From the NCBI GenBank assembly GCA_005879245.1, contig VBLA01000096.1, positions 1 to 11,039 on the forward strand: a DNA stretch of 11,039 bases, written 5' to 3'. The translations under genes and the position numbers were made by a program. Under the pieces are notes generated by a model that was not told the DNA's origin, ran no database searches, and saw only the letters and a program-made list of their open reading frames with translations. Below are positions 1,116 to 11,039 of this stretch, in pieces (position 1 is the stretch's first letter; each line of letters starts with the position of its first letter). The DNA comes from Deltaproteobacteria bacterium (GTDB lineage: Bacteria; Desulfobacterota; Binatia; DP-6).

Positions 1116-1799
1116 CTAGAGATCGCGCGGCGGGGTGTCCATGTGGCGGATCGAGCGACCCTTCACCATGAAGATCACCATCTCGGCAATGTTCGTGGCG
1201 TGATCGCCGACCCGCTCGAGACACTTCGACACGAAGAGGAGGCGCATCGCCCGGGTGACGGTCGTCGGGTCCTCGACCATGAACGAGAGCAGCTCGCGGA
1301 AGAGCTGCTCGTGGAGCTTGTCGATCTGGTCGTCCGCGACGCAGACGGCGAGCGCTAGCTCGACGTCCTCGCGCACGAAGGCGTCGAGGCTCCGATGAAG
1401 CATGTCGCGCGAGAGCTCCGCCATGCGGGGAATGTCGATGTAGGGCTTGATGGGCGACTCGTGCACCAGCTCGACGGCGCGCTCCGCGATGTGCTCAGCC
1501 ATGTCCCCGATGCGCTCGAGATCGGTCGTGATCTTGAGCGCGGTGGTGATCAGGCGGAGATCGCGCGCGGCCGGCTGGTGGAGGGCGAGCAGCTTGAGGC
1601 AGAGGTCGTCGATCTCGACGTCGAAGCGGTTGACGGTGTGATCCCGTGCGATGGTCGAGCGGGCGAGCGGCTCGTTCCGTTCGATGAGCGCCCGCACGGC
1701 CTGCCCGATCTGCTCTTCCACGAGTCCACCCATCTCGAGCACCGCGGTGCGGAGCTCGCCCAGGTGCTCCTCGTACGTCCTGTCGGTGTGGAGGGGCAT
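1116..1799 (-). CDS. phoU: Phosphate transport system regulator PhoU
   Basis: PhoU is a cytoplasmic all-helical protein that links the Pst transporter to PhoR and represses the Pho response when phosphate is plentiful. The protein is 227 aa, the usual length for the family. It has two PhoU repeats, each with the acidic metal-binding motif: ERIGD at 95-99 (followed by MAEHIAE) and ERVGDHATN at 195-203. The start ATG at 1799 overlaps the pstB stop by one base (TGATG), implying translational coupling. It is the last gene of the minus-strand pst operon, and its stop lies 12 bases from the convergent phoR stop. The reading frame stays open upstream through pstB in the frame of the broken PstB N-terminus, but that upstream part shows no family similarity, so the ATG at 1799 is taken as the start. 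Confidence 0.95.
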
Positions 1800-2513
1800 C
1801 ACCCGAAGCGACCCGTGATGTAGTCCTCCGTCTCCTGCCGGGTGGGATTGGTGAAGAGCCGTTCGGTCGGGCCGAACTCGATCAGGCGGCCGAGGTAGAA
1901 GTACGCCGTCAGATCGGAGACACGGGCGGCCTGCTGCATGTTGTGGGTCACGATGACGATCGTGTACGCCGATTTCAACTCGTGGATCAACTCCTCGATC
2001 TTCGCCGTGGCGATCGGATCGAGCGCCGAGGCCGGCTCGTCCATGAGGAGAATCTCCGGCTCGACGGCGAGCGCGCGGGCGATGCACAGGCGTTGCTGCT
2101 GGCCCCCGGAGAGCTCGAGGGCCGACGCCTCGAGCCGATCGGCGACCTCCTCCCAGAGCGCCGCCTGCCGGAGGGTGCGCTCGACGATGCCCCTCAGCTG
2201 CACGGCGTCGCGCACGCCGTGCACGCGCGGACCGAACGCGACGTTGTCGAAGATCGACTTCGGGAAGGGGTTCGACTTCTGGAACACCATGCCGACCCGC
2301 CGGCGGAGGGAGAAAGCTCGACTTCCCGCAGCCCGATGGACCGATGAGGGCGGTGACGCGGTGCGAGGGGATGTCCATCGACACGGCGTCGAGGGCGACC
2401 GTGTCGCCGTAACGGACGGTCAGGTCCCGCACGACGATCTTGACCGGTGCGGCGGCCTCGGTGCCGGGTGTGCTCGATGGGCGCGGCAGGGCGATGTCGA
2501 TCGCGGCGGCCAT
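1799..2513 (-). pseudogene. pstB: pstB, phosphate ABC transporter ATPase, broken by an internal out-of-frame deletion
   Basis: PstB is the ATPase of the PstSCAB phosphate importer. The N-terminal 68 residues start at the ATG at 2513, 4 bases after the pstA stop. They carry an intact Walker A (GPSGCGKSS, 58-66) and end in FL. At about 2309/2308 the sequence jumps to [11 protein letters not shown], which in the family lies some 35 residues further on, and it is in another frame. The downstream half, running to the TGA at 1799-1801, keeps the Q-loop, the signature LSGGQQQR, Walker B ILLMDEP, the H-loop THNMQQ and the family ending DYITGRFG. Missing is the loop and strand between Walker A and the Q-loop, about 104 bases by E. 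coli spacing. No other damage is visible, so this is either a recent lesion or an assembly error. If real, the gene cannot make a working ATPase. Translation from 2513 would stay open and run in frame into phoU. Confidence 0.9.
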
Positions 2514-2517
2514 GGCG

Positions 2518-3378
2518 CTAGCCCGCGCTCCGGACCGCGCCCCCGCGCATGAGCACGCGGGCGAGGACGTTGAGGCCGAGGACGAGCATCAGGAGCACGA
2601 GCCCGCCCGCCCACGCCTGGCGGTGCCAGTCGTCGTAGGGCGCGATCGCATAGGTGAAGATCATGACTGGGAGGGAGGCGGTGGGGGCGCGCCAGCCAGG
2701 GCTCCAGAACCGGTTGTTGAGGGCGGTGAAGAGGAGGGGAGCGGTCTCGCCCGCCACCCGCGCGAGCGCGAGGAGGAGGCCGGTCACGATCCCGCGTATG
2801 CCGGCCGGAATCACGACCCGCATGATCGTCACCCAGGTCGGGGCGCCGAGCGCGAGCGCGGCCTCCCGCAGCGAGTCGGGCACGAGGCGGAGGAACTCCT
2901 CGGTGGCCCGGAGCGCCACCGGGATCATCATGAGGCCGAGCGCCACCCCGCCGGCGAAGGTCGAGAAGTGGCCGAGCGGGCGGACGAGGAGTGCGTAGAC
3001 GGCGATGCCGATCACGATCGACGGGACGCCGTTCAGCACGTCGGCCGCGTAGCGGACCCAGAAGGCAACCGAGCCCCGCCCGTACTCCGCGAGGTAGACT
3101 CCGCCGAGGAAGCCGATCGGAACGCCGACCATCGCCGCCACGAGGAGGATCTTGGCGCTGCCGACGATCGCATTCGCCATGCCACCGCCGGGCTCACCGA
3201 CCGGCGCGGGCAAGTTCGTGAAGAAGCTGAGCGAGAGCGCCGCGACGCCGTGGACCGCGATGTAACCGAGGAGGAAGAGCAGGACGCCGACGGATGTCGC
3301 GGTCGCCAGCCCCGCCGCGGTGAACATGACCCCCTCGACGATGCGCCGGCGCCGATAGCTCCCGGGGATGGGTGTCAT
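2518..3378 (-). CDS. pstA: Phosphate ABC transporter permease PstA
   Basis: PstA is one of the two inner-membrane permease subunits of the Pst high-affinity phosphate importer. The protein is 286 aa, close to the E. coli length, with about six hydrophobic membrane segments. The first is near residues 20-45. The binding-protein-dependent transport signature (EAA loop) is clear: [20 protein letters not shown], followed by the PstA-type helix with [11 protein letters not shown]. The ATG at 3378 overlaps the pstC stop in the arrangement ATGA, which fixes the start well even though no strong ribosome binding site precedes it. The frame stays open far upstream inside pstC, but that stretch is Arg/Pro-rich antisense-like composition and is not part of the gene. 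It looks intact, unlike pstB immediately downstream. Confidence 0.95.
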
Positions 3379-4295
3379 GCGGCCGCCGAGGGGGACCTCT
3401 GCACGCGCCCGATGAGCAGGCGGGCGATCGCGTTCACCACCAGCGTGATCGCGAACAGCACGAGCCCGATCTCCACCAGGGCGGCGAGGTAGACGTCGTC
3501 GGTCGCTTCGGTGAACTCGTTGGCGAGCACCGCCGCCATCGTGTAGGCGGGCGCGAACAGCGAGGCGGAGATCTCCGGCCGGTTCCCGATCACCATCGTC
3601 ACGGCCATCGTCTCCCCGAGCGCGCGGGCGAGGGCCAGGAAGATCGAGCCGAGGATGCCCGATCGCGCGTACGGCAGGACGACGTGGCGCACCATTTCCC
3701 AGCGCGTCGCGCCGAGCGCGAGGGCGGCCTCGCGCTGCGTCTGGGGCACGGCGAGCAGGACCTCGCGCGAGACCGCGATGATGAACGGGACCACCATGAC
3801 GGCGAGGAGCACGCTGGCCGTGAGCAGCCCGACGCCGTAGATCGGACCCGAGAAGAGCGGGATGAAGCCGAGCGCGTTCTGGACCGCGGTCTCCACGCTC
3901 CGCATCGCCGGCACGAGGACGAAGACGCCCACCAGTCCGTAGACGACGCTCGGCACGGCGACCAGGAGCTCGATCAGGAAGGTGAGTCCGTCGGCGACGC
4001 GCAGGGGGAGGAGCTCGGCAAGACAAACTGCTGCGCCGAGCCCGACCGGCACTGCGAGCGCGAGGGCGAGGAAGGTCGTCATCAGCGTCCCGTAGATGAA
4101 GGGGAGGGCGCCGAAGCGGAGTGCCACCGGGTCCCAGGTGGACGTCCAAAGGAACGACCAGCCGAATGCCTCCCGGGCCAGCCGCGACTGGAGGAGCAGG
4201 ACGGCCGCCACGGTGCCCGTGATGGCGAGCACCGAGAGCGCCAGGCCGAGCGTGCCGGCGCGGAAGATGATATCGCCCAGCCGGCGCGGGCGCAC
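3375..4295 (-). CDS. pstC: Phosphate ABC transporter permease PstC
   Basis: PstC is the second inner-membrane permease of the Pst phosphate importer and pairs with PstA. The chosen GTG start at 4295 gives 306 aa and an N-terminus MRPRRLGDIIFRAG leading straight into the first membrane helix, as is usual for PstC. Between this codon and the pstS stop there is no ATG, GTG or TTG in frame, so it is the first standard start. The ribosome binding site is weak. The transport signature reads [20 protein letters not shown], followed by ALGETMAVTMVIGN, a very conserved PstC block. About six membrane helices are visible. It starts 62 bases after the pstS stop, and its stop overlaps the pstA start by 4 bases. 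The frame is open upstream into pstS, but no start codon or family similarity supports a longer protein. Confidence 0.93.
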   Translation of the reverse strand: MRPRRLGDIIFRAGTLGLALSVLAITGTVAAVLLLQSRLAREAFGWSFLWTSTWDPVALRFGALPFIYGTLMTTFLALALAVPVGLGAAVCLAELLPLRVADGLTFLIELLVAVPSVVYGLVGVFVLVPAMRSVETAVQNALGFIPLFSGPIYGVGLLTASVLLAVMVVPFIIAVSREVLLAVPQTQREAALALGATRWEMVRHVVLPYARSGILGSIFLALARALGETMAVTMVIGNRPEISASLFAPAYTMAAVLANEFTEATDDVYLAALVEIGLVLFAITLVVNAIARLLIGRVQRSPSAAA

Positions 4296-4357
4296 GCAGG
4301 GTCTCGCGGCGCGGCCGACGCCGAGGGTGACCCCGATCGCCTCCGCGTGCTCCGTGA

Positions 4358-5285
4358 CTACGACCCTCCGACGGCGATCTTGCTGAGGGCCTGCCGCTCG
4401 CGGGTCACGACCGCCAGAGGCAGCGGGGCGTAGTTGAGCGGCGCGGCGAAGCTCTGCCCGTCGCTCAGCATCCACTCGAGGAATTTCTTGATCGCGGCGC
4501 CCTTCTCGGCGTCGGCGATGCGGGTCGGAACCAGGAGCCAGGTGAAGCTCGCGATCGGATAGGCCGCGGCCGCGGGCGGATCCGTGATCGACACGCGGAA
4601 GTCGTCGGGCATGTTCTCGGCCGCGGCGGCCGCTGCGGTGACGCTCTCGAGGCTCGCCAGCACGAACTGGCCGGCCCGGTTCCGGACGTCGCCGTAGGGC
4701 AGCTTGTTCTGCAGGGCGTAGATCAGCTCGACGTAGCCGATCGCATTGGGGGTCTGCTTGACCAGTCCGGCGACTCCCTCGTTGCCCTTGCCCCCGAGCC
4801 CGACCGGCCAGTTGACGGAGGTGCCCCGGCCGACGTTCCGCTGCCATTCGGGACTCACCTTGCTCAGGTAGTCGGTGAAGATGTAGGTCGTGCCGCTACC
4901 ATCCGAGCGATGCATGGGGACGAGGGCTATGGCGGGCAGCTTCACCCCGGGGTTCGCCTCTGCGATCGCCGCGTCGTCCCACTTCGTCACCTTGCCGAGG
5001 AAGATGCCGGCCAGCGCTTCGGGTGTGAAGCGGAGTCGCTCGATGCCTGCCAGGTTGAAGGTCGGGACGACGGCCCTCGGTGACCTGCCGGATGCCACCC
5101 CCGCTGCCAATCGACTGGTAGTTGATCTGGAAGTCGGAGAAGTGCTTGTGAAACTCGTCGAACCACTTGGAGTAGATCGGGTACGGGAAGGTCGCCCCCG
5201 CGCCCGTGACGAGTACCGCCGCGCGCGACGCGGCCGCGGCGAGCGCGAGACCCAGAACCCCAGCCACCCAGACTCGCTGTCGCAT
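4358..5285 (-). pseudogene. pstS: pstS, periplasmic phosphate-binding protein, broken by an internal out-of-frame deletion
   Basis: PstS captures phosphate in the periplasm for PstCAB. The ATG at 5285 follows a perfect AGGAGG, and a signal peptide of about 22 residues (MRQRVWVAGVLGLALAAAAS...) leads into GAGATFPYPIYSKW and the phosphate-binding IGSGGGIRQVTE. At about 5075/5074 the sequence jumps to AVVPTFNLAG in another frame. Relative to E. coli PstS about 30 residues are missing, including the TVDFGASD loop whose Asp binds the phosphate. The rest is well kept down to the TAG at 4358: the RSDGSGTT ligand loop, the WPVGLGGKGNEGV block and the IGYVE segment. Untouched flanks suggest a very recent lesion or an assembly error. 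If real, neither half could bind phosphate normally. It is the first gene of the pst operon, directly behind a Pho box. Confidence 0.92.
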
Positions 5286-5290
5286 GTTCC

Positions 5291-5296
5291 CCTCCT
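5291..5296 (-). promoter_or_regulatory. Strong Shine-Dalgarno site of pstS
   Basis: On the minus strand the sequence AGGAGG lies 5 bases before the ATG at 5285. It settles the pstS start against the longer open frame that begins at 5393, whose extra N-terminus is not signal-like. Such a strong site fits an abundant periplasmic binding protein. Confidence 0.85.
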
Positions 5297-5330
5297 CTCG
5301 TTCTTTCGTCGGGATCTCTAGCGGTGCAGT

Positions 5331-5359
5331 GTTACAATCACGTGACAGGCACGTGAAAG
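5331..5359 (-). promoter_or_regulatory. Pho box: three PhoB heptads with 11-bp periodicity upstream of pstS
   Basis: Read on the minus strand, three 7-base elements are separated by 4 bases each: CTTTCAC (5359-5353), CTGTCAC (5348-5342) and TTGTAAC (5337-5331). Against the E. coli PhoB heptad CTGTCA(C/T) they match at 6, 7 and 5 of 7 positions. The exact 11-bp period is that of PhoB dimers on one DNA face. The array ends 45 bases before the pstS ATG and points toward it. Ten bases downstream is TAGAGAT (5320-5314), a weak -10 candidate at the spacing known for Pho promoters, which use PhoB instead of a -35 element. A further heptad, GTGTCAC, lies at 5393-5387, about three helical turns upstream. 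The site lies between divergent pstS and ppx and could affect both. Confidence 0.75.
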
Positions 5360-5421
5360 GACGCGGCGTAGGTGGGGGGACCCCATGTGACACGAAATGG
5401 GCAGATCGCTAGGATGCCGCC

Positions 5422-6987
5422 GTGCGCCTGGCCGCCATCGACGTCGGGTCCAACTCGGTCCACATGGTGATCGCCGAGGTGAGGCCGGAAGGGCACGTGA
5501 GGGTGGTGGAGCGGGTGAAGGAGATGGTGCGCCTCGGACGGCGCGCCTTCACCACTGGCCGGCTCTCTGCCGAGGCGATGGATCTGGCGGTGCGTGCCGT
5601 GCAGGACTTCGGACGGCTCGCGCGCGCGCGGCGGGTCGACCGCTTGCGGGCCGTGGCGACGAGCGCGGTGCGCGAGGCGCGGAACGGGCCTGCGCTGGTG
5701 CGCCGGCTGCGCCGTGAGACCGGGATCGCGGTGCGGGTCATCTCTGGGCTCGAGGAGGCGCGGCTCATCTTCCGTGCCGCCCGTCATGCGCTCGGGCTCG
5801 AAGGGGGGCCGCACCTGCTCGTCGACGTGGGCGGCGGCAGCGTCGAGCTCGTGCTCGTCCACGACGGCCGCCCGCTCTGGCTGCGGAGCCTGCCGCTCGG
5901 TGTGGCGCGCCTGACCGAGCGCTTCCTGCTGCATGACCCGCCCACCGCCCGGGAGGTGCGTCGGCTCGAGCGGCACCTCGAGGAGGTGCTCGGCGCGCTG
6001 CTCGACCGCGTCCGGCACGCCGCGGTGCTACGCGCCGTCGGGACGTCAGGCACCGTCAACACGCTCGTGGCGATGGCACGCGCCGCGCGGGGCGAGGACC
6101 TCGGCCGATTGCACGGCGCGAGCGCGAGCGCGCGCGAGCTCCGACGCCTGCGCCGGCGCATCCTCGCTGCCGACGCCGCCAAACGGAGCGGGCTCGCCGG
6201 CATTGATACCAAGCGGGTCGACCTGATGCCGGCGGCGGCGGTGCTGCTCGACTTCATCCTCGCGCGGGCCGGAGCCCCGACGCTCGTCGCCTGCACGTGG
6301 GCCCTGCGTGAAGGCTTGCTCCTCGACCTCGCCCGCCTGCGCAGCGAGAACGCGGGTGGGGCACCCGCAAGGCGCCGGCGATCGGTCGAGGCGCTCGCTG
6401 CCCGCTTCGCGGGACCGAACCCGCATGGTCGCCACGTGGCCCGCCTGGCGCTCTCGCTCTTCGACGCCGTGGCTCCTGCCCTCGCGCTCCCGCCGCCCGC
6501 GCGCGAGCTCCTCGAGTACGCCGCCCTCCTCCACGACATCGGTCACGCCATCGACCGCGATCGCCACCACCGGCACTCGTGCTACCTGATCCAGAACGCC
6601 GAGCTGCTCGGCCTCGAACGGATCGAGGTCGAAACGATCGCCCAGGTGGCACGCGGCCATCGGAAACAGGCCCCCAAGCCGAGCGATCTGGGCGCGCTGC
6701 CGCCGCGGCTTCGCCAGGTCGTGCGTGGGCTCGCCGCCCTCTTGCGCGTGGCCGACGCGCTCGACCGGACCCATTCTGCGGCAGTGCGTGCCGTGAGCGC
6801 CCGGTTCACCGGCCGCCGCCTCGTCATCGAGGCCGAGCCACGGGGGGACGACGCGGAGCTGGAGCTCTGGGCGGCCGCGCGCCGGACGGATCTGCTCGCG
6901 CGGCTCCTCGAGCGGCCTGCGATCCTGCGGCAGCGGACGTCCACGGAGCCCGCGGCGGTCGGGCTTCCCGCGAGCGGGGCGCCATGA
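5422..6987 (+). CDS. ppx: Ppx/GppA-family exopolyphosphatase with C-terminal HD domain
   Basis: The family releases phosphate from polyphosphate chains (Ppx) or converts pppGpp to ppGpp (GppA). The 521-aa protein begins at GTG 5422, 7 bases after AGGA, with the actin-like ATPase phosphate-1 loop AAIDVGSNSVH near residues 4-14. The phosphate-2 loop is DVGGGSVE from Asp135, and the GTSGT loop is at 207-211. The C-terminal third is an HD domain with the apparent metal set His338, His371-Asp372 (LLHDIGHAID), His413 (GHRK) and Asp445. E. coli PPX has HEVG in place of the His-Asp pair, so here the HD site looks complete and might have activity of its own. The gene is divergent from pstS, sharing a 136-base region with the Pho box, and is the first of five overlapping genes. 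Its stop overlaps the next start as ATGA. Ppx versus GppA cannot be told from sequence; the context favours polyphosphate. Confidence 0.9.
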   Translation: MRLAAIDVGSNSVHMVIAEVRPEGHVRVVERVKEMVRLGRRAFTTGRLSAEAMDLAVRAVQDFGRLARARRVDRLRAVATSAVREARNGPALVRRLRRETGIAVRVISGLEEARLIFRAARHALGLEGGPHLLVDVGGGSVELVLVHDGRPLWLRSLPLGVARLTERFLLHDPPTAREVRRLERHLEEVLGALLDRVRHAAVLRAVGTSGTVNTLVAMARAARGEDLGRLHGASASARELRRLRRRILAADAAKRSGLAGIDTKRVDLMPAAAVLLDFILARAGAPTLVACTWALREGLLLDLARLRSENAGGAPARRRRSVEALAARFAGPNPHGRHVARLALSLFDAVAPALALPPPARELLEYAALLHDIGHAIDRDRHHRHSCYLIQNAELLGLERIEVETIAQVARGHRKQAPKPSDLGALPPRLRQVVRGLAALLRVADALDRTHSAAVRAVSARFTGRRLVIEAEPRGDDAELELWAAARRTDLLARLLERPAILRQRTSTEPAAVGLPASGAP

Positions 6988-7703
6988 TCTCCATCGCCCG
7001 GAGCGCCAGTCTGAGCCAGCCGCACCCTTATCCCGGCCGGCTCATCACCGTCGAGGGGATCGACGGCTCCGGCAAGTCGACGCAGCTCCTCCTCCTCGAC
7101 CGCTGGCTCACGTCCCGCGGCTACCCCGTGCGCTTCACGGAGTGGAACTCCTCGCGCCTCGTCCGCCGCGCGATGAAGCGCGGCAAGAAGAAGGACCTGC
7201 TGACCCCGACCACCTTCAGCCTCCTCCACGCGGTCGACTTCGCCGACCGTCTCACCTATCAGATCGTCCCGCCCCTGAAGGCGGGCATGATCGTGCTCGC
7301 CGACCGCTACGTCTACACCGCCTTCAGCCGTGACGTCGCGCGCGGCGTTCATCCTGCGTGGGTGCGCTCGGTCTACAGCTTCGCACCCCGGCCCGACCTC
7401 GCGCTCTACTTCCGCGTGCCGATCGAGGTGAGCCTCGATCGGTTGCTCGCGGGGCGGACCAAGCTCAAGTACCACGAGGCCGGCATGGACGTCGGCCTTT
7501 CGACCGATCCGGTGGACAGCTTCCGCATGTTCCAGAGCCGCGTGCTCGAAATTTACGACCAACTCGCCGAGGAGTTTGGCCTGCGCGTCGTCGACGCCAC
7601 CGCCGACATCCCGAGCCAGCAGAAGATCGTCCGCCGGCTCGTGCGGGACACGTTACGCCGCTACGAGGGGAAGCGCGCGACGGGGAGCGCGGATGGGGCC
7701 TGA
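6984..7703 (+). CDS. Thymidylate-kinase-superfamily P-loop kinase, first of a tandem pair
   Basis: This 239-aa protein has the fold signatures of dTMP kinase: Walker A EGIDGSGKST (24-33, with Lys31), a DRY motif at 107-109 (LADRYVYTAF), and a TMK-like C-terminal helix. The regions that give dTMP kinases their specificity differ. The usual TREPGGT-like segment is replaced by TEWNSS at 52-57, and the LID reads KYHEAGMD (162-169) instead of an Arg-rich DR(F/I)E loop. The product is therefore a nucleotide or nucleotide-like kinase whose substrate is uncertain. The ATG at 6984 overlaps the ppx stop by 4 bases (ATGA). The C-terminus overlaps the next gene by 11 bases. It is clearly paralogous to that gene: both share TTFSLL..A.DFADRL, ADRY.YTAF and Y.E.GM. 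The position between ppx and a CHAD gene suggests a role in polyphosphate or phosphate-stress physiology, which is inference. Confidence 0.85.
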   Translation: MISIARSASLSQPHPYPGRLITVEGIDGSGKSTQLLLLDRWLTSRGYPVRFTEWNSSRLVRRAMKRGKKKDLLTPTTFSLLHAVDFADRLTYQIVPPLKAGMIVLADRYVYTAFSRDVARGVHPAWVRSVYSFAPRPDLALYFRVPIEVSLDRLLAGRTKLKYHEAGMDVGLSTDPVDSFRMFQSRVLEIYDQLAEEFGLRVVDATADIPSQQKIVRRLVRDTLRRYEGKRATGSADGA

Positions 7704-8448
7704 AGACCGCAGACAGAAGCCATGGTACGGGGAGGGGCTGCCCTACCTCCGGGTCGGGCCGCTTCCGGGGCACCTGATCGTCATCGAGGGCACTGACGGC
7801 GTCGGGCGCTCGACCCAGATCGAGCTGCTCCGGCCGTGGCTCGAGCTCGAGGGTCATGCGGTGAGCAACACCGGGTGGACCCGTTCCCCGCTCCTTGCGG
7901 ACACGATCAACGAGGCGAAGGCGGGGCACGAGCTGACGGTCACGACGTTCAGTCTGCTCTATGCCGCGGACTTCGCCGACCGGCTCGAGCACCAGATCCT
8001 ACCGGCGCTCCATGCGGGGTCCATCGTCCTTGCCGACCGGTACATGTACACGGCGTTCGCGCGGAACCGCGTGATGGGGGCCGACCCGGCCTGGACGCGG
8101 CAGGTCTTTGGCTTCGCCCTCGTCCCGGACCTCGTCCTCTACCTCGAGATCGACGTCGAGCACCTCGTCCCGCGCGTGCTCGAAGGGAAGGGCATGGACT
8201 ACTGGGAGTCGGGGATGCACCTCGCGCTCGGCACCGACATCTTCGACTCCTTCGTGCGGTACCAGCGTCGCCTGATCGCGGAATACAACGCGCTCGGCCG
8301 GGAGTTCGGTTTCGTGACGATCGATGCGCGGCGCCCCGTCGATGCGATCCAGAGCGACCTCCGGACCCACGTCGCGATGTACCTTGCGAGTGCGCGCCGC
8401 CGGCGTCGTCCGCAACCGGAGAAGGCGCTCGGCCGGTCGCGCGCCTGA
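7693..8448 (+). CDS. Thymidylate-kinase-like P-loop protein with Arg in place of the Walker A Lys, second of the pair
   Basis: This 251-aa paralog of the preceding kinase has about 20 extra N-terminal residues (MGPEDRRQKPWYGEGLPYLR...) before the fold begins. The P-loop reads EGTDGVGRST (32-41): Arg39 replaces the Lys that normally binds the ATP phosphates. The rest of the fold is well preserved: TTFSLLYAADFADRL, ADRYMYTAF with DRY at 115-117, and DYWESGM (169-175) at the LID position. The region equivalent to the dTMP-recognition segment is TGWTRS (60-65). It may be a weak or non-catalytic partner of the first kinase, a regulatory subunit, or an enzyme that tolerates Arg. The ATG at 7693 is preceded by GGGGAG with a 5-base gap and overlaps the upstream gene by 11 bases. 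The TGA overlaps the next ATG by one base (TGATG). The basic tail (ARRRRRPQPEKALGRSRA) could bind a polyanion, which is speculative. Confidence 0.83.
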   Translation: MGPEDRRQKPWYGEGLPYLRVGPLPGHLIVIEGTDGVGRSTQIELLRPWLELEGHAVSNTGWTRSPLLADTINEAKAGHELTVTTFSLLYAADFADRLEHQILPALHAGSIVLADRYMYTAFARNRVMGADPAWTRQVFGFALVPDLVLYLEIDVEHLVPRVLEGKGMDYWESGMHLALGTDIFDSFVRYQRRLIAEYNALGREFGFVTIDARRPVDAIQSDLRTHVAMYLASARRRRRPQPEKALGRSRA

Positions 8449-9428
8449 TGGCGGAGGTCGCGAAGGCCCGGCGGACCTGGGGGCTCGTGCTCTCGCCGGA
8501 GGATGCTGCTGACGCGGCGGCCCGCGCTGTCGTGCGCCATCACCTGCGCGCGTTCACGGAGTCCGAGGAGCGGGCCCGCGCGGGCGAGGTCGAGCCGATT
8601 CACCAGCTCCGGGTGTCGACGCGGCGCCTGCGCGCGACGCTGCGACTCTTCGAGCCCGTGCTCCCCGTTCGGTTGGCCGGGCACGGACTGGCGGAGCTGG
8701 CCTGGCTCGGGAGCGCCATCGGCCCGGTGCGCGACGCCGACGTGCTCTCCGAGGCGGTGCTGGGGCGAGCGCAGCGGCTCGGTCCTGAGCTCCGGAGCCT
8801 CCTCGGTCCGCTCGGAATCGCCCTCCACGAACGGCGAGTGGCCGCCCACGAGGCCCTCATCCTCGCCCTCGACTCGAGTCGCTGCCGGCGGCTCCTCGAC
8901 CGGCTCGCGGGCTACGCGGTGTCGCCCGCGGCGAGCCGGCGTGGTGCGGTACGCCTCGGGGACATCGCGCCCGACCTCCTCCGGCCGCTCCTCCGCTCCG
9001 TGCTACGGTCCGGCCGCCGCCTGTCCGCCGACTCCTCCCCCGCCTCGTTCCATCGCCTGCGGGTCCGGGTGAAGCGGCTCCGCTACGCCGTCGAGACGCT
9101 CGGGGGCCTGGGCGGCAAGTCGATGCGGAAGCTGCTCCGGCAGCTCGTTCGCTTGCAGGACCTGCTCGGCGAGCATCAGGACGCCGTCACGATCGCTGCC
9201 CGGCTCCGCGCCCTCGCCGAGGAAGCGGGGCTCCCGCGGCCGACCGTCCTCGCCACGGGCGCGCTGGTCCTCGATTTCGTCCGCCGCGGCCGCAAGCTCC
9301 GACGGCGCTTCCCCGAAGCCTGGCAGCGCCTCGACCGGCGACGCCTGCGCGACGGCGTGGCCGCCGAGCTCCGCGCGAGCGCGAGCCGACGGGTGGCACC
9401 GCCGCGACTCCGCGCGACGGGCACATGA
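8448..9428 (+). CDS. CHAD-domain protein (probable polyphosphate-binding)
   Basis: CHAD domains are helical bundles lined with conserved His, Arg and Lys. Members of the family bind inorganic polyphosphate and can localise to polyphosphate granules. The 326-aa protein consists almost entirely of the domain. The first repeat has EPIHQLRVSTRRLRATLRLF (49-68), and the second has FHRLRVRVKRLRYAVETL (201-218), followed by LLGEHQDA near 239-246. These are the two pseudo-symmetric basic helices expected of the family. No membrane segment, signal peptide or fused CYTH domain is present, so it is probably cytosolic. The ATG at 8448 overlaps the kinase stop by one base, and its TGA overlaps the next start by 4 bases. 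The neighbouring exopolyphosphatase supports a polyphosphate role. The C-terminal tail (RASASRRVAPPRLRATGT) is basic and looks disordered. Confidence 0.9.
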   Translation: MAEVAKARRTWGLVLSPEDAADAAARAVVRHHLRAFTESEERARAGEVEPIHQLRVSTRRLRATLRLFEPVLPVRLAGHGLAELAWLGSAIGPVRDADVLSEAVLGRAQRLGPELRSLLGPLGIALHERRVAAHEALILALDSSRCRRLLDRLAGYAVSPAASRRGAVRLGDIAPDLLRPLLRSVLRSGRRLSADSSPASFHRLRVRVKRLRYAVETLGGLGGKSMRKLLRQLVRLQDLLGEHQDAVTIAARLRALAEEAGLPRPTVLATGALVLDFVRRGRKLRRRFPEAWQRLDRRRLRDGVAAELRASASRRVAPPRLRATGT

Positions 9429-9955
9429 TCCTCTACGTCATCCGGCACGGTATCGCCGAGGAGCGCGCGCCGGCCGAGGACGACGGTGCCCGGCGCCTCA
9501 CGCCACGCGGGCGCCAGCGGATACGCGGGGCGGCCGCGGGGCTGCGCGCGATCGGCGTCCGCTTCGACGTCCTTCTCACGAGTCCCCTGGTGCGCGCCGC
9601 CGAGACCGCCACGATCGTGGCGGAAATCTACGGCGGCCAGCCCGTGCCGCGGGAGCTGCCGGCGCTGGCGCAGGGTGCCCCCCCCGCGGAGACGGTGCGC
9701 GCCCTTCAACCCTTTCTTCGCCATGGGCATGTCGGGATCGTCGGCCACGAGCCCGGGCTGAGCGAGGTGGTGGCACTCCTCGTGACCGGCTCTCCGGACG
9801 GCATGGCACTGTCGCTCAAGAAGGGTGGTGTCGTTGCGCTCGAGCTCCGGGGACGCGCACCGCGGACGCACGCGAAGCTCCGCTGGCTCCTTGCCCCCCG
9901 CCACCTCCGGCGGATCGGGCGCGCGGTCCGGAAGCGGCTGCTGCCGGGCGTGTAA
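9425..9955 (+). CDS. sixA: SixA-type phosphohistidine phosphatase (histidine phosphatase family)
   Basis: Members of the short histidine-phosphatase branch remove phosphate from phosphohistidine or small phosphorylated molecules through a phospho-His intermediate. The 176-aa protein has the catalytic RHG motif at residues 7-9 (MILYVIRHGIAEE), with His8 as the nucleophile. The second Arg lies in SPLVRAAETA (Arg57, with Glu60), and the second catalytic His in VGHEPGLSEV (His108). All active-site residues are in place. The start ATG overlaps the CHAD stop as ATGA, so it is translated as the last gene of the five-gene operon. E. coli SixA acts on an Hpt domain or a PTS phosphocarrier. Here the target is unknown and could equally be a phosphorylated component of the phosphate response. 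A hydrophilic basic C-terminus (RRIGRAVRKRLLPGV) extends past the core. Confidence 0.87.
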   Translation: MILYVIRHGIAEERAPAEDDGARRLTPRGRQRIRGAAAGLRAIGVRFDVLLTSPLVRAAETATIVAEIYGGQPVPRELPALAQGAPPAETVRALQPFLRHGHVGIVGHEPGLSEVVALLVTGSPDGMALSLKKGGVVALELRGRAPRTHAKLRWLLAPRHLRRIGRAVRKRLLPGV

Positions 9956-10143
9956 CATCCCCGCAAAGATGTGACAGCGGTCGGTGGACCGTTACCCCCG
10001 TGTGACGGAGCCCGTCGGGCCAACAAAATGTGACAGCCGGGTTACGTTCCGGGGAAGAATTGAGGAAGATCGTCGAGTCCCCGGCGTGGTATTTTGACAG
10101 CAGGCCGAATTTACGACAGAGGGCAGCGCCGGGAGGGGAGACG
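9956..10143 (+). promoter_or_regulatory. Upstream region of the porin gene with repeated GTGACAG-like (Pho-box-like) heptads
   Basis: This 188-base gap before the porin holds no ORF of note. It repeats a motif: GTGACAG at 9971-9977 and 10030-10036, GTGACGG at 10002-10008, TTGACAG at 10094-10100 and ACGACAG at 10113-10119. Two pairs have the 11-bp period of PhoB sites: GTTACCC-N4-GTGACGG (9991-10008) and GTGACAG-N4-GTTACGT (10030-10047). On the opposite strand these read CTGTCAC/GTAAC, like the array before pstS, but the orientation is reversed relative to the porin. Two short GC hairpins (stems 9978-9982/9987-9991 and 10004-10008/10012-10016) lack a T tract, so a terminator is not established. 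A TATTTT at 10090-10095 is a possible -10 without a well-spaced -35. Confidence 0.4.
10131..10140 (+). promoter_or_regulatory. Shine-Dalgarno site of the porin gene
   Basis: A purine-rich GGGAGGGGAG ends 3 bases before the ATG at 10144. It offers GGGAGG at 7-base spacing and supports this ATG as the start, together with the signal peptide that follows. Confidence 0.75.
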
Positions 10144-11039
10144 ATGCGGAAGATCAAGCCGACGGCTCTGGTGACCCTCGGTCTGCTCGCCCTGCCCGCA
10201 ATGGGGCGGGCCGAGGATCCGACCGAGCGGCGGCTGCGCCTGCTCGAGGAGCAGCTCCGGAAGACCCAGGCCGAGATCCAGCAGCTGCGCGACCAGCTAC
10301 AGCAGCAGCGGGCGATCGGTCAGGCGACCCAGAAGCAGGTCGAGCAGACGGCGGAGGAGAGCAAGACCGCTGCGGCCGAGGCCAAGAAGGGGCTCGAGCT
10401 CCCCGACTGGGTGAAGAAGACGACGCTCTTCGGCGATGTGCGTCTCCGCCACGAGGGCTTCTACCACCAGCCCCACAAGAGCGGGCAGGACGTCACGGCG
10501 CGCAATCGGGAGCGGGTGCGTGCCCGCGTCGGCCTGAAGGTGGCGTTCAGCGACGAGCTCTCCGCGACCGTCCGGGTGGCCAGCGGTGATCCCAACAACC
10601 CGGTCTCCACGAACGAGACGCTGACCGGGAACTTCACACGCAAGCACGTCAATCTCGACTGGGCCTTCCTCACCCTCGCTCCAGGCGCGAGCTTCGGGAT
10701 CCGGCCCGGGGCGGTGAGCATCACCGGGGGCAAGTTCCCGAACCCGATCTTCCGCGTCGGCCAGCTCATCTTCGACGATGACCTCTCCCCCGAGGGCGCG
10801 AGCCAAACCCTCTCCCTCCTCGACAAGCCCCGCGGGGGACTCGATCAGGTGAAGGTCCACGCGCTCGAGTGGACGTACAACGAGGTCTCGAACGCGCAGG
10901 ATGGCTGGATGTTCGGCGGGCAGGTGAACCCCAGCGGCCACGTGGGGAACGTGCAGGTGGAGGCCGGTATCGGGCAGTACTGGTGGCTCAACCCCGATCA
11001 GATCGCGCAGGCACTCAACACGAACACGTCGCTCACCAA
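10144..11039 (+). CDS. Putative outer-membrane porin, 3' end outside window
   Basis: This gene is open from the ATG at 10144 to the right edge (298 complete codons), so only the N-terminal part is visible. Residues 1-23 form a signal peptide (MRKIKPTALVTLGLLALPAMGRA) with likely cleavage before EDPTE. Residues about 27-80 form a charged, Gln-rich coiled coil (LLEEQLRKTQAEIQQLRDQL), as found at the periplasmic end of several trimeric or surface-anchored porins. From about residue 87 the LPDWVKKTTLFGDVRLRHEG start and alternating polar/hydrophobic strands (ERVRARVGLKVAF, LSATVRVASGD, PGAVSITGGKFPNP) resemble the beta-barrel of the 'putative porin' family (Porin_5-like). Substrate is unknown. 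The Pho-like heptads upstream and the gene context make phosphate or another anion a reasonable guess, but the OprP-type family itself is not recognised. Confidence 0.75.
   Translation, partial: MRKIKPTALVTLGLLALPAMGRAEDPTERRLRLLEEQLRKTQAEIQQLRDQLQQQRAIGQATQKQVEQTAEESKTAAAEAKKGLELPDWVKKTTLFGDVRLRHEGFYHQPHKSGQDVTARNRERVRARVGLKVAFSDELSATVRVASGDPNNPVSTNETLTGNFTRKHVNLDWAFLTLAPGASFGIRPGAVSITGGKFPNPIFRVGQLIFDDDLSPEGASQTLSLLDKPRGGLDQVKVHALEWTYNEVSNAQDGWMFGGQVNPSGHVGNVQVEAGIGQYWWLNPDQIAQALNTNTSLT

Follow-up and report, generated by a model that had tools for sequence, protein, structure and literature searches.

The window analysed here, an 11,039-nucleotide stretch of DNA from a Deltaproteobacteria bacterium of the class Binatia (contig VBLA01000096.1, assembly GCA_005879245.1; an incomplete assembled genome, 81% complete, in 590 contigs), carries an operon encoding an exopolyphosphatase-type protein (Ppx), two thymidylate-kinase-fold proteins, hereafter K1 and K2, a CHAD-domain protein and a SixA-type phosphatase. 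With the balance tilting slightly in its favour, we read K1 and K2 as a heteromeric polyphosphate kinase of the family of ST1543 from Sulfolobus tokodaii, composed of one catalytic and one altered subunit. The operon would serve polyphosphate metabolism: K1 and K2 would form a single enzyme that moves phosphate between nucleotide and polyphosphate, its most likely activity being that of a polyphosphate kinase, with K1 as the catalytic subunit and K2 as a non-catalytic partner, shaping the enzyme and probably assisting in holding the polyphosphate chain. Ppx would remove phosphate from polyphosphate, the CHAD protein would bind it and SixA would act as an accessory phosphatase. The polymer enters this reading because the neighbours of the pair belong to families that hydrolyse (Ppx) or bind (CHAD) polyphosphate.

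The operon and its two kinase-like proteins

The five genes lie on the + strand in the order Ppx–K1–K2–CHAD–SixA, with junction overlaps of 4, 11, 1 and 4 bases. The first (5422–6987, GTG start, 521 aa) encodes a Ppx/GppA exopolyphosphatase-type protein with a C-terminal HD domain, as judged from Pfam, NCBIfam and structure matches (PF02541, 195.3 bits for a cut-off of 27; PF21447, 97 bits; HD, 38 bits; TIGR03706, 277 bits, below the cut-off of 307); its best solved relative is the exopolyphosphatase 8jgo (E 2.7e-63). The K1 gene (6984–7703), which overlaps the Ppx gene through ATGA, encodes a putative catalytic subunit with an intact P-loop, GIDGSGKST, the Lys of which is residue 31 (codon 7074–7076). 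The K2 gene (7693–8448) overlaps that of K1 by 11 bases and encodes a paralogue, the predicted non-catalytic partner, with the P-loop GTDGVGRST, in which Arg39 (codon 7807–7809) takes the place of the Lys. Both proteins match Thymidylate_kin (PF02223; 68 bits for K1 and 65.7 bits for K2) and both stay below the curated cut-off of TIGR00041, 83.25 bits (68.7 and 77.1 bits, respectively). The fourth gene (8448–9428), which shares one base with the K2 gene in TGATG, encodes a stand-alone CHAD protein of the polyphosphate-binding family (PF05235, 182.2 bits versus a cut-off of 25.6; solved CHAD domain 6qv5, E 1e-21), and the fifth (9425–9955), joined to it by an ATGA overlap, a SixA-type histidine phosphatase (TIGR00249, 90.3 bits, above the cut-off of 74.5). 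No Rfam family reaches its gathering threshold anywhere in the window. A preliminary description of this DNA, made from the sequence alone, had proposed a five-gene module coupled through overlaps at all four junctions and possibly devoted to polyphosphate; the operon is confirmed as a real, tightly coupled five-gene unit, and its gene context points to polyphosphate. Since the five-gene order recurs within the class and the pair far beyond it (see below), the arrangement is more than chance.

The nearest solved relative of both K1 and K2 is ST1543 (entries 2plr, 4nzy, 4rzx and 5h70), with E values of 1.7e-54 for K1 and 1.8e-39 for K2, versus 5.3e-13 and 3.1e-12 for the next solved thymidylate kinase. 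Both proteins have the thymidylate-kinase fold, and the matches listed in a structure search with the K1 model are thymidylate kinases. PPK2 chains are absent from the 50 best matches listed for the K1 model (two lists) and for the model of an apparent K1–K2 fusion, P0001; these lists being filled by thymidylate kinases, the absence proves nothing. At E values up to 1, neither the PPK2 family (PF03976) nor the PP_kinase domains of PPK1 match K1 or K2. A weak PADLOC match to PDC-M51B (23 and 29 bits) was attributed to the P-loop kinase fold and discarded. In a tree computed in quick mode, supported by the Shimodaira–Hasegawa approximate likelihood ratio test (SH-aLRT) only and rooted on PPK2 by choice, K1 and K2 each occupy one side of a branch (SH-aLRT 97 and 96), the archaeal homologues group with K1 (91) and four canonical thymidylate kinases (L019, L020, L021 and L024) fall outside; these four are the canonical rows that count, three others (L018, L022 and L023), which proved to be in the wrong frame and had very long branches, being disregarded.

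A scan of named genome contigs yielded at least 557 relatives, of which the best 80 served for comparison. The titles of these 80 loci cover 15 named phyla and one unnamed bacterium, and L037 is one contig with the class locus L031; since 27 of the 80 are Nitrospirota and some titles reading 'Deltaproteobacteria' probably stand for Binatota, the rows are not independent. In canonical thymidylate kinases, the Glu-Pro-Gly of REPGG, the thymine-site Arg and the Tyr-Gln of AYQG are each present in 27 of 27 sequences (three of 30 canonical loci, unread by the motif pattern, were left out). The same positions are W-N-S, Phe and gap-Arg in all 80 K1 and in all of the 61 archaeal protein sequences compared. 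The canonical motifs are kept by none of the 80 K2, which mostly have W-T-R and retain the Arg of the ARD-type motif in 79 cases, and every K1 displays the full ST1543-like motif set (W-N-S, ARD-type Arg and P-loop Lys, 80/80). In the Staphylococcus aureus enzyme, an inhibitor that occupies the thymine site is bound by Arg70 and Gln101 (PMC10610096), which are taken to be the canonical Arg and Tyr-Gln positions scored here. Thus, as far as their motifs tell, K1 and K2 lack the residues that hold thymine and would not be typical thymidylate (dTMP) kinases.

These replacements bear on a rival view, in which both proteins would be ATP-dependent nucleotide kinases of the ordinary sort, acting on dTMP or another nucleoside monophosphate, that sit in a phosphate-related operon by chance. 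The Thymidylate_kin matches speak for it, as do the name of ST1543, which was deposited as a dTMP kinase, and the fact that K1 or K2 of some relatives passes the TIGR00041 cut-off; in one genome (G032, 98% complete) only the pair scores over that cut-off, which may reflect a genome gap or a real substitution. Nevertheless, the thymine-site motifs are replaced in every K1, K2 and archaeal homologue compared, and a separate canonical thymidylate kinase is present in 12 of the 13 pair-bearing genomes of the class (in the source genome, the match is on contig C327 and is partial in the assembly). Together with the constant pairing, the altered P-loop and the polyphosphate context, this makes ordinary nucleotide kinases an improbable explanation.

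The two proteins differ at the P-loop. The residue at the Lys position is Lys in 27/27 canonical thymidylate kinases, 61/61 archaeal homologues and 80/80 K1, and Arg in 80/80 K2. In a separate sample of Acidobacteriota it is Lys in 26/26 K1 and Arg in 26/26 K2, although the K2 P-loops of this phylum otherwise differ (e.g. GPDSSGRST). Pooling the two sets, which have one locus in common (L156 = L104), all 105 distinct loci show the Lys/Arg asymmetry. Every one of the 80 K1 keeps the P-loop Lys, the DRY Asp-Arg and the lid Arg, suggesting that K1 is catalytic. The DRY motif and the lid Arg are also kept in nearly all K2, along with many other conserved residues; because of its invariant Lys-to-Arg change, K2 is probably no ordinary kinase, and the earlier view of two equal nucleotide kinases is not supported. 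Four further loci (L152–L155) encode a divergent K1-like protein with an intact P-loop, and in three of them, from Acidobacteriota (L152, L154 and L155), the next gene encodes a thymidylate-kinase-like protein devoid of both P-loop and DRY motif; no kinase partner was found beside the K1-like protein of L153. Such a stepwise loss of catalysis in a partner that is always present would be expected of a structural or ligand-holding subunit. None of Ppx, CHAD and SixA was found in the fetched stretch of these four loci. In L155, according to Pfam, the two genes adjoin others for CotH, a PLD-family protein, a STAS/DUF4956 protein and a phosphate-selective porin (Porin_O_P), and L152 and L154 have similar genes; this is a different island, which may also be polyphosphate-related.

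Distribution and gene neighbourhood of the pair

In every one of the 80 best loci, K2 comes next after K1 in the same direction, with at most 100 bases between the matched parts in 71 of them. Close relatives of the window K1 are named Candidatus Binatus, Binataceae or Binatia. In the class, 13 of 38 genomes, including the source genome, have the pair. Among the 12 other class loci, seven (L025–L031) reproduce the whole Ppx–K1–K2–CHAD–SixA order on one strand, and L032, at a contig end, has it without SixA; only Ppx adjoins the pair in L033 and L034, CHAD and SixA are inverted in L036, and the pair stands alone in L035. Note that in the related loci L030, L031, L037 and L038, of which L031 and L037 are one contig, the pair is intact while its neighbouring ppx gene is split or partial. 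Two even samples, which avoid picking by similarity, were also read: of 198 genomes from the phylum, seven have K1, each time with a second copy adjacent (7/7), and 30 of 149 Acidobacteriota genomes match a divergent K1, 27 of them with an adjacent second copy (28 loci). Twenty-six of these 28 loci were read anew, the other two being L088 and L101, and K1–K2 is present in 26/26. Pairwise distances among K1 correlate with those among K2 (r 0.918, 78 loci; largest of 2000 shuffles, 0.16), which indicates, at the level of sequence divergence, that K1 and K2 evolve together.

Of the 80 best loci, 63 have Ppx in the fetched stretch, 48 SixA, 30 CHAD and 70 at least one of the three; in 52 the Ppx gene immediately precedes the pair in the same orientation. 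The counts for the 51 loci with ample flanks are 41, 36, 16 and 43, respectively, and those for the 26 Acidobacteriota loci 15, 6, 17 and 21. By comparison, none of 20 canonical thymidylate kinase loci from the same class (8–15 kb stretches, searched with the same profiles) has Ppx, CHAD or SixA nearby. The survey of neighbours called for by the preliminary description thus shows the pair conserved beside ppx, CHAD or sixA genes, clearly the opposite of the outcome that was to refute the proposal. The constant unit is K1–K2, then Ppx. CHAD had been cast as the core of the system, as a scaffold bringing polyphosphate to the kinases; this idea is not supported, since CHAD lies near only 30 of the 80 pairs, a lower bound because the CHAD profile was grown from the window protein. 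CHAD is near 4 of the 27 Nitrospirota pairs, three of these matches being weakly scored.

The prominence of Ppx raises the question of whether K1–K2 might be a sensor instead of an enzyme, binding nucleotide as well as polyphosphate and regulating Ppx, in which K2 would be the regulatory subunit. The rank of Ppx as the commonest neighbour and its position just upstream of the pair fit such a role, as does the retention in K2 of many conserved residues without the P-loop Lys. A sensor is nonetheless very unlikely in our estimation, given that the invariant P-loop Lys, DRY Asp-Arg and lid Arg of K1 suggest catalysis and that Ppx is missing from the fetched stretch in 17 of the 80 pair loci.

A proposed polyphosphate kinase weighed against other activities

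Fifty of the 80 pair genomes, for which completeness figures are absent, were examined for known polyphosphate kinases: PPK1 is present in 17, PPK2 in 32 and neither in 11. These counts are relevant to a further possibility, namely that K1–K2 is a kinase complex which phosphorylates nucleoside monophosphates (or diphosphates) with polyphosphate as the donor and so spends the polymer instead of making it, an idea close to that of the preliminary description. It agrees with the thymidylate-kinase fold of both proteins, and the Ppx and CHAD context suits consumption as well as synthesis; moreover, PPK2 enzymes, which have a related fold, are described in a passage of PMC4748334 as favouring polyphosphate-driven ATP synthesis. 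However, the 11 genomes without PPK1 or PPK2 would have neither enzyme to make the polymer (with the proviso on completeness just given), and spending leaves the loss of the P-loop Lys in K2 unexplained. We regard a polyphosphate-spending kinase as possible, if rather unlikely. As to the location of known enzymes, a PPK2 gene lies close to the pair on the same contig at two loci (L119, G003:C192; L036, G007:C128), and PPK1 lies about 10–12 kb from the pair in three genomes of one family (G019:C44, G026:C38 and G033:C91).

The pair can be compared with several known systems. The canonical thymidylate kinases (TIGR00041) share with K1 and K2 the fold and the general plan of a P-loop kinase; their EPG, thymine-site Arg and Tyr-Gln are absent from K1 and K2, and the window proteins score below the family cut-off. 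The PPK2 enzymes (PF03976) are P-loop kinases like K1 and K2, which nevertheless have no PPK2 Pfam match; according to the structural comparison in PMC4748334, the structures nearest to the Francisella tularensis PPK2, after other PPK2s, are thymidylate kinases, including ST1543. CHAD proteins bind polyphosphate, and their genes are often found in operons with polyphosphate enzymes (PMC6537752, in passages on CHAD, the latter point citing Iyer and Aravind 2002); the fourth gene of the window is of this type and is here tied to a kinase pair. The 61 archaeal proteins compared are all of the K1 type, with the P-loop Lys in each; the bacterial system is a pair.

The archaeal side also has a history. 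The legend of Figure 2 in PMC10892726 draws a neighbourhood of biomining Sulfolobales with SixA, PPX, dTMP kinase and CHAD, and the same source states in a passage that the crenarchaeal enzyme synthesising polyphosphate was unknown. In our literature search, this was the only paper that joined CHAD domain, polyphosphate and thymidylate kinase, and nothing was found joining 'thymidylate kinase-like' with polyphosphate. A passage of PMC13318637 credits Sulfolobus with 'a distinct PPK-type enzyme', on the authority of Hofmann et al. 2026. The view of the preliminary description that the arrangement is undescribed is not supported, given the neighbourhood already drawn for the biomining archaea and a crenarchaeal family reported in 2026. 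The latter, ascribed to Hofmann et al. 2026 (JBC 302:111283), is said to be a distinct polyphosphate kinase family of Crenarchaeota. In a control genome, that of S. acidocaldarius, no Pfam match to PPK1 or PPK2 was found; by elimination, the crenarchaeal family of 2026 is probably the same as the ST1543-like family or related to it. The 'dTMP kinase' of the Sulfolobales cluster is presumably of the ST1543 type. Both identifications are our own inferences.

Several points weigh against a two-subunit polyphosphate kinase, besides the name of ST1543 and the case of G032 mentioned above. No activity of any bacterial K1 or K2 was found in the literature search. None of Ppx, CHAD and SixA is near 10 of the 80 pairs (L040, L050, L051, L085, L091, L102, L105, L112, L113 and L115), four of these ten being Chloroflexota, and CHAD is optional across the wider family. 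Some of the counted neighbours are weak matches, namely SixA in L114 and CHAD in L052, L054 and L059 (27–41 bits), and the short 'Ppx' matches of L063, L082 and L111 seem to cover no more than the HD part, as checked for L111. PPK2 is present in 12 of the 13 pair genomes of the class, so that polyphosphate could be made or used otherwise, and the idea that the pair replaces PPK1 was rejected for want of statistical support (class, 8/13 versus 7/25, p 0.08; phylum, 6/7 versus 173/191, p 0.51). Finally, ten long proteins that show the K1–K2 order (P0001–P0010) were rejected as proof of a physical complex, since most of them look artefactual: P0003, P0005, P0006, P0008, P0009 and P0010 look like products of deletions or frameshifts, the end of P0007 looks frame-shifted, and only P0001, P0002 and P0004 could be real fusions. 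The model of P0001 suggests domains packed together (predicted local distance difference test score, 78.8; predicted template modelling score, 0.76).

The divergent pst–phoU genes and implications

Upstream of the operon, on the − strand (1116–5283), lie divergent pst–phoU genes (pstS, pstC, pstA, pstB and phoU), assigned from matches to PhoU, ABC_tran, BPD_transp_1 (two) and PBP_like_2 and from their similarity to L025 and L034. A triple repeat resembling a PHO box, TTTCACG-4-TGTCACG-4-TGTAACA (5330–5358, − strand), that is, three 7-mers with a 4-base spacing, gives two overlapping one-mismatch matches. Sixty simulated windows had 0.05 such matches on average, versus two in the real one; when as many as three mismatches are allowed, the window has 6 matches versus 3.1 expected and is not unusual. 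On its sequence the repeat is a good candidate Pho box, with a strand that fits pstS. Thus, of the earlier proposal that the operon faces a pst operon across a Pho box, the divergent genes and a candidate repeat stand, and the repeat is oriented towards pstS. Nor is the head-to-head layout fixed, since in L025 the pst genes are about 4.5 kb away with a porin in between. PhoU and transporter genes recur near the pair in other phyla: of 92 loci, 10 have a PhoU cluster nearby and 11 a cluster of ABC-ATPases that is probably PstB (one representative of each cluster was checked). Weaker PHO-box-like repeats (9990–10046; three mismatches, i.e. chance level) lie upstream of the Porin_5 gene at 10144. 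Compared with their counterparts in L025 and L034, the pstS (4358–5393) and pstB (1799–2513) genes are short of about 31–35 residues, and each shifts frame at the gap, near 5073 and 2309, respectively; these breaks look like assembly defects.

Altogether, the interpretation given in the preliminary description is partly supported. Extending our own reading beyond the window, we tentatively suggest, at slightly less than even confidence, that a widespread bacterial polyphosphate kinase needs two different subunits, a catalytic one of the thymidylate-kinase fold and a dedicated pseudo-kinase that always carries an Arg in place of its P-loop Lys, joined in an obligate heteromer, and that the latter partner has decayed to a P-loop-free form in one lineage. 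If so, bacteria would possess a third structural way of making polyphosphate, in a pair at present annotated as two dTMP kinases. For the 11 of 50 pair genomes examined in which no known polyphosphate kinase was found, the pair is a concrete candidate for the missing enzyme under that label. With a Lys-to-Arg change fixed over loci whose titles cover 15 phyla, K2 would also be, in our view, an unusually clear example of a pseudo-enzyme retained next to an active counterpart.

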